Assembly (NCBI GenBank): GCA_013334965.1
Contig: JAAXWO010000001.1
Location: forward strand, 275,929-339,928
DNA: 64,000 bases
Direction of reading: 5' to 3'
DNA from: Chlorobiaceae bacterium
Lineage (GTDB): Bacteria > Bacteroidota > Chlorobiia > Chlorobiales > Chlorobiaceae
Below the pieces are notes generated by a model that saw only the letters and a list, made by a program, of their open reading frames with translations, did not search any database and had not been told where the DNA came from. Positions 55,443-58,621 of the stretch are shown one piece after another (within the stretch, counting starts at the first letter, position 1; each line of letters begins with the position of its first letter). A program made the translations under genes and the position numbers.

Positions 55443-56102
55443 TTAGATTCCCTTGATCTTCCTCGCTGCTGCGGCGGGGTCGGCTGCCTTGAAGAAGGCG
55501 GTGCCGGCGATCAGTGCGTCGGCTCCGGCGGCTGAGAGTTCGGCGGCGTTCTCTTCGGTTACTCCGCCATCCACGGCTATCACCATCCGCGGGTTCATCT
55601 CCATGCGCATGGTATCGAGGCTCGCTATTTTGGCGACCGATGAGGGAATGAACTTCTGGCCGCCGAATCCGGGGTTCACGGACATCAGCAGGACGAGGTC
55701 AAGGTCCGGCAGGATCGATTCGAGCACCGAGACCGGAGTGGCCGGGTTGATCGAGACGCCGGCTTTGGCTCCGAGGCTCTTGATGTACTGGATCGTGCGG
55801 TGCAGGTGGGGGCATGCTTCCTGGTGCACCGTGATCTGGTGCGATCCGGCCTTGATGAAATCCTCGATAAAGCGGTCGGGATCTTTGATCATCAGGTGGG
55901 TGTCGATCACCAGGCTGCTGGATTTGGCGATTGCTTCGACGATCAGGGGGCCGAAGGTTATGTTGGGTACGAAAGCGCCGTCCATGACATCACAGTGGAG
56001 CCAGTCCGCACCTGCTTTTTCAGCAAGTTCGATAGATGACTTCAGATTGGTGAAGTCAGCAGATAGAATCGACGGGGCAATGAGGGTGGATTTGCCGGGC
56101 AT
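55443..56102 (-). CDS. rpe: Ribulose-phosphate 3-epimerase
   Basis: Interconverts ribulose 5-phosphate and xylulose 5-phosphate in the pentose phosphate pathway. The 219-residue TIM barrel has APSILSADF, WLHCDVMDGAFVPNITFGP, LVIDTHLMIKDPDRFI, LLMSVNPGFGGQKFI and VIAVDGGVTEENA; metal-binding His and Asp residues are present. It lies 42 bases downstream of the Omp85 gene on the same strand and ends before a bidirectional terminator. Confidence 0.96.
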   Translation of the reverse strand: MPGKSTLIAPSILSADFTNLKSSIELAEKAGADWLHCDVMDGAFVPNITFGPLIVEAIAKSSSLVIDTHLMIKDPDRFIEDFIKAGSHQITVHQEACPHLHRTIQYIKSLGAKAGVSINPATPVSVLESILPDLDLVLLMSVNPGFGGQKFIPSSVAKIASLDTMRMEMNPRMVIAVDGGVTEENAAELSAAGADALIAGTAFFKAADPAAAARKIKGI

Positions 56103-56144: not shown

Positions 56145-58322
56145 TCAAAAAGCCTCTCCAATTCCAAAGTTGAAGGTGAGGTTCGATAGGCCCATGTTCG
56201 AAAATTGCCATGGGTTCGGATTTGCCGGGTCGTGCACTTTCCATGCGAAATCGAATCTGAACGGTCCGATGGGCGAGCCGATGCGCAGGCCGGTGCCCCA
56301 GTCCCATGCAAAATCCCTGGTCAACGATTGAATCGAGAACGCATAAGGGCCTTTCCTGTCCCAGATGTTGCCGACGTCGGTGAAGAGGGTTATCCCCGAC
56401 GGTTGTCCGAAGACCTTGAACAGCTTCATCCGGTACTCCAGGCCAAGTTCGGCCTTGATGTCGGCGCCGAAGCTGGATGTCGCCGCGCTTCGGCAGTTGG
56501 CTGGCCCGAGGGTGTTGAACAGCCAGCCTCTCATGCTGTTTGAGCCTCCTGCATAGAACCGGTGCTCTTCAGGCGTCGTTTCTGCCTTGCCGTATGGGCT
56601 CATCCAGCCAAGGGAGATCCTGCCGGCGACCTGTCGATCAGGGGTCAGGTCTTTTGCGAAGGCGAGTTGCGTATCGAGCTTGAGGTATTGTGAATATGCT
56701 GTGCCGAAAATCTGTGGCTGGGAGTCCCCGAACGTACTGTACTGTTTCTTGTCGATGTATTTGTCGATGAGCCACAGCAGGCTGCCTGACTCTTCGGCAG
56801 TGGTCGTGAAGTTCCATGTCGTCGTCTTGAGTGGCGACAGGTCATTCCTGTTGGAATAGTTGTATTGCAGGCGGAAGGTCTGGATGAGCCTTGTCTGGAG
56901 AAGGCTGTCGATGCCTTTGCTCACTGCGGTCGGGTTGGCAGGATTGATGCCGATGTTTTTTGCCAGATCGGTCTTGAACAACTGTTCGAAGCCGCGCAGG
57001 GAATCTTTGCGGACGACCTCGATCTCGAAGAAATCGAAATTCATGCGCGAGTTTTTGGTGGGCCTGGTGCTGTAAGTGGCCCTGGCGATCTCCCTGCGAC
57101 TGGAGAGCAGCACGGGAAGCTTTGACTGGGCATATTCCACGGATGAGTTGTAGTATGATCCCTGTCTTTTCAGTATCGGCATGAGCAGGTCAGCCTTGAT
57201 GTTGAGCTCATACGGGATGATCTTGTCGTACTGGTCCGGCGTGAGGTTGCCCAGGAGGTTCGTGTTCGATGAGGTCTGGATGCCGTAATTGCTCGAAAGC
57301 CTGAATTGCTGGCCTCCGCCGAACAGGTTCCTGTTTTCGTAGGCCAGCGCTCCACCCAGAAAAAGTGAGCCGTAGCGGTTGTCTACGAGGAGTTTCGGTT
57401 CGATCTGTTGTTTCGGGCTCGGTTCCAGATGGATCGTCGTGTAGATGCTTCCCGATTTAATGGAGTCTTTTTCTATCGAAATCGACGAGAAAAGGTTCGT
57501 TGATCCGAAGTTCTGGAGGGTTCGTTGTTCGAGTGATTGCCGGGTCGTCTCTCCAGCTCTCCACGCTATCGAGGTGGGGAAGAGTTTCTGTGAGAATTTC
57601 TGGCGCCCGTAGATGGTTACCGAGACGTTGTCACGCTGGAATCTTGTGGCGGTAGATTCATCATCCTTTTTCCTCGGGTCATGAACCACGGCTCTTACCG
57701 GGCCGTATGCAAACCTGGCGGGTATGCCGATGCGGAAGTGCACACCTGCGTTCAGGCCGAGGGTATCGACCTTGATTCTGATGCTGTCGGGGTGGATATA
57801 GGCGTAACCGTTCTCCTTGAAAAATTCAAGGGAGCGGTCACGTTCCTGGATAAGCTTTTCTACAGAAAATATCTCCCTTACCTTCAGTACGCTTTTGTTG
57901 AAGTAACCGGTACGGAGCTCTTCCGGTAAGGTTTCAAGTCCGGCATAGGTGAGCGAGTCGATGCTCGTCGGCTTGTTTTCCTTTATTGAGATGAGGATGT
58001 CGACGTTTCGTCCGGGTTTGCGGACGATGGTGGTGTCGACGTCTGCGAAGAAGTAGCCCTTGAAGGTATAGAGCTTCCTGATCAGGTTGATGTCTTTTTC
58101 GAAGTCTTCGGAGATGAACGGACGGACACCTCCCCTGAAAAGGCCAGATCCCAGAAAGGAGCTCCGGGTCGATGTCATCATAATTCCCCGGATCTCATCG
58201 GAGGTGATGGCTTTGTTGCCGGTGATCCGTATGCTTTTAACCTCCTGAACGGCTGGCGACCTGCTTGTAGCGCCGGACGAGCCGTTCTCGGCCCATACAT
58301 ATACCGGCGACATGAGAAACAA
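56145..58322 (-). CDS. Omp85-family outer-membrane assembly protein (BamA/TamA-like)
   Basis: A barrel protein of at least 725 residues. POTRA-type units lie in the N-terminal third (VKSIRITGNKAITSDEIRGIM, KPTSIDSLTYAGLETLPEELR). The C-terminal half is a 16-strand-type barrel with FYAGGSNSMRGWLFNTLGP, the RGW/RGF loop-6 motif of Omp85, and ends GIGEAF with the terminal Phe. Fewer POTRAs than classic BamA are visible, so TamA-like or a second BamA is possible. The open frame starts at TTG 58322 with only a partial signal peptide; an ATG at 58380 would supply a full signal peptide but is shifted by a T10 run. Confidence 0.85.
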   Translation of the reverse strand: MFLMSPVYVWAENGSSGATSRSPAVQEVKSIRITGNKAITSDEIRGIMMTSTRSSFLGSGLFRGGVRPFISEDFEKDINLIRKLYTFKGYFFADVDTTIVRKPGRNVDILISIKENKPTSIDSLTYAGLETLPEELRTGYFNKSVLKVREIFSVEKLIQERDRSLEFFKENGYAYIHPDSIRIKVDTLGLNAGVHFRIGIPARFAYGPVRAVVHDPRKKDDESTATRFQRDNVSVTIYGRQKFSQKLFPTSIAWRAGETTRQSLEQRTLQNFGSTNLFSSISIEKDSIKSGSIYTTIHLEPSPKQQIEPKLLVDNRYGSLFLGGALAYENRNLFGGGQQFRLSSNYGIQTSSNTNLLGNLTPDQYDKIIPYELNIKADLLMPILKRQGSYYNSSVEYAQSKLPVLLSSRREIARATYSTRPTKNSRMNFDFFEIEVVRKDSLRGFEQLFKTDLAKNIGINPANPTAVSKGIDSLLQTRLIQTFRLQYNYSNRNDLSPLKTTTWNFTTTAEESGSLLWLIDKYIDKKQYSTFGDSQPQIFGTAYSQYLKLDTQLAFAKDLTPDRQVAGRISLGWMSPYGKAETTPEEHRFYAGGSNSMRGWLFNTLGPANCRSAATSSFGADIKAELGLEYRMKLFKVFGQPSGITLFTDVGNIWDRKGPYAFSIQSLTRDFAWDWGTGLRIGSPIGPFRFDFAWKVHDPANPNPWQFSNMGLSNLTFNFGIGEAF

Positions 58323-58393
58323 GGCAAGGAAAATGATAATCCAGGCCTTGAATCGGGAAGTTAACCTAAAAAAAAAACATCGCAGCTTAGCCT

Positions 58394-58621
58394 CTACGTT
58401 AACGGTTCTTCGTCGCTATAGCCGAAATCTTCGTCCGTGGGGTAGTCCGGCCAGATCTCTTCGAGAGTTTCATAAAGTTCGTCGCTGTCCGGAAGGTCGT
58501 GGAGATTCTCCAGCACCTGTTGGGGAGCTCCAGTCCTGTTGGCGTAATCGATCAGCTCATCTTTGGTGACGGGCCATGGAGCATCGGCTATATATCGGGC
58601 AAGATCGAGATTCCAGTACAT
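58394..58621 (-). CDS. DUF2795 family protein
   Basis: A 75-residue acidic protein. YIADAPWPVTKDELIDYANRTGAPQQVLENLHDLPD is the DUF2795 core, a short helical domain found in many bacteria with no known function. It ends 13 bases before the alternative ATG of the Omp85 gene, so they are likely co-transcribed. Confidence 0.85.
   Translation of the reverse strand: MYWNLDLARYIADAPWPVTKDELIDYANRTGAPQQVLENLHDLPDSDELYETLEEIWPDYPTDEDFGYSDEEPLT

Follow-up and report, generated by a model that had tools for sequence, protein, structure and literature searches.

The Omp85 Locus and Its Start Region

On the minus strand of the 64,000-nucleotide stretch of Chlorobiaceae DNA that was analysed (the window), an Omp85-superfamily gene lies between a DUF2795 gene upstream (58394..58621) and a ribulose-phosphate 3-epimerase gene downstream (55443..56102). 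The Omp85 frame is open over 756 codons down to a stop at 56145, and its first ATG, GTG or TTG is the TTG at 58322, from which the mechanically called open reading frame runs (56145..58322). The encoded protein carries a POTRA domain at residues 27-115 (PF07244, 53.6 bits) and an Omp85 barrel at residues 332-725 (PF01103, 148.6 bits), both over the Pfam cut-offs, which places it in the Omp85 superfamily. The best curated family is NCBIfam lipo_TamL, with 308.4 bits over residues 60-724, and this top match is what likens the protein to TamL, the TamA-like Omp85 protein of Bacteroidota and Chlorobi. Unlike TamL, however, the window protein does not reach the lipo_TamL cut-off of 400 bits, has no lipoprotein cysteine at the cleavage site (..SPVYVWAENG; judged by eye in the window protein only), and is encoded on a different contig from tamB. 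By sequence similarity it is thus TamA/TamL-like, though under the family cut-off. Elsewhere the same genome holds three more Omp85-domain matches and one TamB. According to the excerpts consulted, TamL occurs in Chlorobi (PMC4494059, PMC12045153), and a related TamL of Flavobacterium is essential and confined to the growth phase (PMC12045153).

The start region of the gene is unusual in its reading frame. An ATG at 58378..58380 is preceded, 10 nt upstream, by a Shine-Dalgarno-like AGAGG (58391..58395), recognized by its sequence and by how well the 20 nt before the ATG pair with the 16S tail (duplex energy -5.8, vs -2.9 on average in control windows lying further upstream). The ATG is followed directly by ten T (58368..58377) and then AGG, and is not in the Omp85 frame: faithful transcripts would be expected to yield the four-codon MFFF-stop (ATG TTT TTT TTT TAG, 58366..58380). 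Read in the Omp85 frame, the T10 run is followed by the residues RLTSRFKAWIIIFLALFLMSPVYVWAENG, which open a signal peptide (58290..58367) with the head RLTSRFK, a hydrophobic core and ..VYVWA, after which cleavage would occur by our own reading; from ATG 58380 this signal peptide is accessible solely via a frame change. The segment between the run and TTG 58322, RLTSRFKAWIIIFLA, comprises the charged head and the first part of the hydrophobic core, so that the TTG lies within the hydrophobic stretch. An earlier note on this DNA had described the ATG with its AGAGG and T10, the instant stop in the ATG frame, and the opening of the Omp85 frame at a TTG inside the signal, and all of this is borne out. 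It had also placed Arg and then Lys after the run; Arg does come first, but the Lys follows six residues on and is not adjacent. The stop of the DUF2795 gene lies 13 nt before ATG 58380, and therefore the two genes probably form one operon, judging from spacing. T10 is scarce in the genome: 5 overlapping matches, or 4 separate runs, occur on both strands of its 2.48 Mb.

Conservation of the Run and Frame in the Chlorobiaceae

The Omp85 gene is present in 85 of 86 Chlorobiaceae genomes, G008 being the sole one with no match, and the heads of all 85 genes were read. In 47 of the 85, a run of at least nine T lies at the start or a short way after it; these comprise 19 of 20 genomes in the window's genus, taken here as Chlorobaculum, and 28 of 65 in the family's second genus, which we take to be Chlorobium. 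Its length is T10 in 39 genomes, T9 in four and T11 in four. The codon before the run is ATG in 30 genomes, GTG in 16 and TTG in one; a gap separates start and run in L012 (3 nt) and in L070, L076, L081 and L090-L092 (13 to 15 nt), and the frame is still wrong in each. The comparison with related genomes that the earlier note had proposed thus reveals a shared arrangement, in which the nearest upstream ATG, GTG or TTG open into the run is not in the Omp85 frame in 46 of the 47 run-bearing genomes; the five single-contig genomes (G001, G002, G015, G019 and G024) are all among these 46. The lone in-frame case, L066, has T11 and comes from a draft of about 290 contigs. Joining the start to the Omp85 frame requires a shift of +1 nt in 34 genomes and of -1 nt in 12 (or two bases the opposite way), and the unshifted frame meets a stop at the run end in 36 of 47, with none there in the other 11. 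An A/T homopolymer of about nine or more at a frame transition, with both the run and the transition conserved, is among the features of slippage genes, and both are found here, the conserved transition spanning the two genera of the family.

The association of a start codon with T10 at this gene exceeds chance. Among the 54 RTG+T10 sites in the 86 family genomes, 37 lie at the Omp85 gene (counted from coordinates), as do 16 of the 17 in the window's genus; the reversed control pattern occurs 38 times in the 86 genomes and once in the window's genus. The 17 sites at other loci were read, and none resembles a conserved gene start; two of them are in frame (L176 and L177). At L176 (G075:C81:11600-12600), in a single genome, ATG+T10 opens an in-frame ORF of more than 200 codons that by eye looks glycosyltransferase-like.

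An intrinsic terminator on the T run, for which a scan of the window gave one weak match, was rejected: across 47 genomes the preceding 40 nt are no more stably folded than shuffled sequence (mean z 0.14), and a hairpin that reaches -6 kcal/mol and ends at most 3 nt from the run exists in only five of the 47. As a separate observation, the signal-peptide region, over the 70 nt that follow the start, forms more stable structure than its shuffled versions in the family genomes, with or without the run.

On a protein tree of the 85 genes and two outgroups, presence or absence of the run changes at least five times, and the frame state among run-bearing genomes at least seven times, one of these changes being to in-frame, at a tip (L066). 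Seven changes are too few for a firm test (at even odds, the probability of at most one in seven being to in-frame is 0.06). In the order outside the family, 12 genomes have a match and 10 heads were read; no long T run lies near the head in these 10, the longest being 7, so the run seems to have been gained at the base of the family. The run is absent from 38 of the 85 genomes, and the device is therefore dispensable. Run-less genomes have an in-frame GTG (L033, L035, L036, L063, L067, L082 and L083) or, in the others, an in-frame TTG start, L020 excepted. Within the window's genus, L020 (G012) alone among the 20 genomes with the gene lacks a run of at least nine T; its head reads CACGG followed by seven T, with no evident in-frame start codon.

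Probable Dependence of the Omp85 Frame on a Shift

A usable start was defined as an in-frame ATG, GTG or TTG that lies at most 18 codons from the hydrophobic core and gives a head of net positive charge. Such a start exists in 12 of the 47 run-bearing genomes (L066 among them) vs 36 of the 38 run-less genomes (Fisher p 3e-11, relatedness ignored); the two run-less exceptions are L020, with no clear start, and L083, whose in-frame GTG gives a head that is neutral by count. Pairwise testing on the tree for a link between the run and an in-frame start had too few pairs (median p 1). Among the 35 run-bearing genomes without a usable start, 18 also lack an in-frame CTG, ATT, ATC or ATA near the run. 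The earlier note had held that relatives with T10 and a different in-frame start carrying a proper signal peptide would refute its proposal: by the above definition, an in-frame ATG, GTG or TTG able to start the signal peptide occurs in a minority, 11 of the 46 out-of-frame genomes, and is lacking in 35. L024 has an in-frame GTG 20 nt 5′ of the run.

The nine codons that follow the run are net positive in the Omp85 frame in all 47 genomes; for the other two frames the counts are 25 and 21. Over 24 codons the Omp85 frame has no stop in any of the 47, and the other frames are interrupted in 35 and 7. A test of codon-position constraint after the run gave 27/31/37 differences (p=0.45; 18 sister pairs, 175 codons), with no significant constraint in this sample. 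The out-of-frame start is preceded by predicted pairing with the 16S tail of -4.6 kcal/mol on average, vs -2.5 kcal/mol in control windows, with -4 or better in 22 of 47 genomes.

Proposed Transcriptional Slippage and Its Alternatives

The layout, its conservation, the scarcity of other usable starts in most genomes and the linkage of run and frame are demonstrated, whereas slippage, its transcriptional nature and its purpose are inferred. Of the three causes offered by the earlier note, transcriptional slippage fits best: ATG 58380 is probably the real start, and programmed slippage of RNA polymerase on the adjacent T run would be what allows Omp85 to be expressed. The out-of-frame layout is kept across dozens of species, so the protein would probably be made only upon slippage. 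RNA polymerase would copy the T run into mRNAs that differ in U number; transcripts of templated length would give mostly a very short peptide (MFFF), and the fraction of mRNA with a suitable U count would bring the start codon into the Omp85 frame, giving a protein with the full signal peptide. Since only transcripts of the right length would encode the protein, the run would cap Omp85 output to a fraction, and we would guess that it acts as an output limiter. Transcriptional slippage yields both longer and shorter RNAs and can therefore serve either shift direction, which suits a need that varies by species. Against it count the possible in-frame starts of 11 out-of-frame genomes, the in-frame GTG of L024, the codon-position result, the small number of independent frame changes, and the 38 genomes without a run, among them L020 with no clear start. 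In the portions of the literature consulted, runs of 9 A or T in bacteria give RNAs with extra bases (PMC5009743), and a 9A/9T run whose length is conserved among homologs is considered very likely to be used for slippage (Baranov et al., PMC1088944).

In programmed ribosomal frameshifting, the templated U run would be translated and phenylalanyl-tRNA on a UUU beside the stop would slip into the Omp85 frame. Sites of the prfB type have a stop codon at the slip site, and the stop at the run end of the unshifted frame in 36 of the 47 genomes resembles them, but it is missing in 11. Ribosomal frameshifting normally has one direction across homologs, and a fixed direction was not found among the out-of-frame genomes (34 need +1, 12 need -1). 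Stable RNA folds lie 3′ of the start in the 47 run-bearing genomes (mean z -1.6), but in the 32 run-less genomes (of 38) that were folded the same region is equally stable (mean z -1.8). The structure is therefore not evidently tied to the run and was dropped as a frameshift stimulator. We regard ribosomal frameshifting as unlikely.

Phase variation at the DNA level, the second cause named in the earlier note, would have the run mutate in replication, and the protein would come from whichever minority of cells carries an in-frame length. The locus shares with phase-variable genes a homopolymer near the start and a frame-dependent gene, long A/T tracts near the 5′ end having been proposed, in the excerpt consulted, as a general phase-variation device (PMC2831843). 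Run length also differs between near relatives (T11 in L021 vs T10 in L022; T10 in L016 vs T9 in L019), and L066 is in frame. Unlike in such genes, the run length is almost fixed at T10. The in-frame state is seen once in 47 assemblies, compared between species, and phase variation fits poorly for that reason: about 16 would be expected at equal odds (p 1e-7, relatedness ignored). The gene is moreover retained in 85 of 86 genomes, and a mostly-off state would be costly if the essentiality of the related TamL in Flavobacterium, as given in the excerpt consulted (PMC12045153), is a guide. Phase variation is accordingly a quite improbable account.

The run might also be incidental, translation starting at an in-frame codon before or after it or at a near-cognate codon, possibly by re-initiation after MFFF. 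Five genomes of one subclade (L013, L014, L016, L018 and L019) do have an in-frame ATG directly after the run, reading MISR(R/Q).., L090-L092 have an in-frame TTG, and the window itself has an in-frame CTG 8 nt 5′ of the run. Yet no alternative start codon is common to the family, most run-bearing genomes being without a usable canonical start and 18 of those without near-cognates as well, and the TTG start of the window would give a signal without a positive residue. An incidental run would also leave the retention of the start and T run unexplained, and we consider this reading very improbable. Sequencing or assembly error in the homopolymer, also raised in the earlier note, is negligible as a general cause, since, although homopolymers are prone to error and most of the genomes are multi-contig drafts, 46 of 47 genomes are out of frame, all five single-contig ones included.

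Relation to Known Systems

The comparison that lies closest at hand is with dnaX. In the window's genome (L001, contig C6:39749-42758, minus strand) dnaX consists of two frames split at an A10, both halves of which match DNA polymerase III gamma/tau models, and by analogy it would be a second slippage-type gene in this genome; split dnaX genes with A10, Chlorobi among the examples, have been attributed to transcriptional realignment in the portion of the report consulted (PMC3711429). The likeness to dnaX (A9 in Thermus thermophilus, A10 in the split genes) is a conserved homopolymer of about nine to ten A/T at a frame transition. In dnaX, however, the run lies late in the gene and there are two large products, whereas the Omp85 run adjoins the start and one product is very short. 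Another A10 was seen near the 5′ end of rsmA/ksgA in L005 (contig C19:106044-109053, minus strand, near 1500), where it is in frame, encoding KKK before LGQNF, and slippage would shorten some products.

In mxiE of Shigella the longer product arises only when a U run gains one more U, which unites two frames (excerpt of PMC1088944), a parallel to the frame joining proposed here for Omp85. In spa13 of Shigella 58 codons precede the site, whereas the Omp85 run is at the start codon, a position that the consulted parts of both reports do not describe for mxiE or spa13 (PMC1088944, PMC5009743). These two are plasmid secretion genes, in contrast to a family-wide cellular gene. A literature search found no paper on slippage at this Omp85 gene. 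The kind of mechanism is known; what looks new is that it would sit right at the start codon, in a cellular gene shared across a family.

Implications

Recoding is usually encountered at the junction of a long first ORF with a second, and here the first frame is mostly a few codons long, so that frameshift finders and gene callers are expected to miss such sites; gene callers would place the start wrongly, leaving out the signal, in dozens of genomes. A further-reaching and more tentative possibility is that the run serves throughout the Chlorobiaceae as a built-in governor for a protein of outer-membrane assembly, with selection keeping the DNA out of frame in either direction. If so, every Omp85 molecule would need polymerase slippage, and elongation speed and UTP level would act through slippage on outer-membrane assembly capacity. 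The organism's dnaX carries a second such run, and the question is testable in culturable green sulfur bacteria. If the slippage reading is true, this would be a rare family-wide cellular gene, outside mobile elements, whose whole output depends on slippage.
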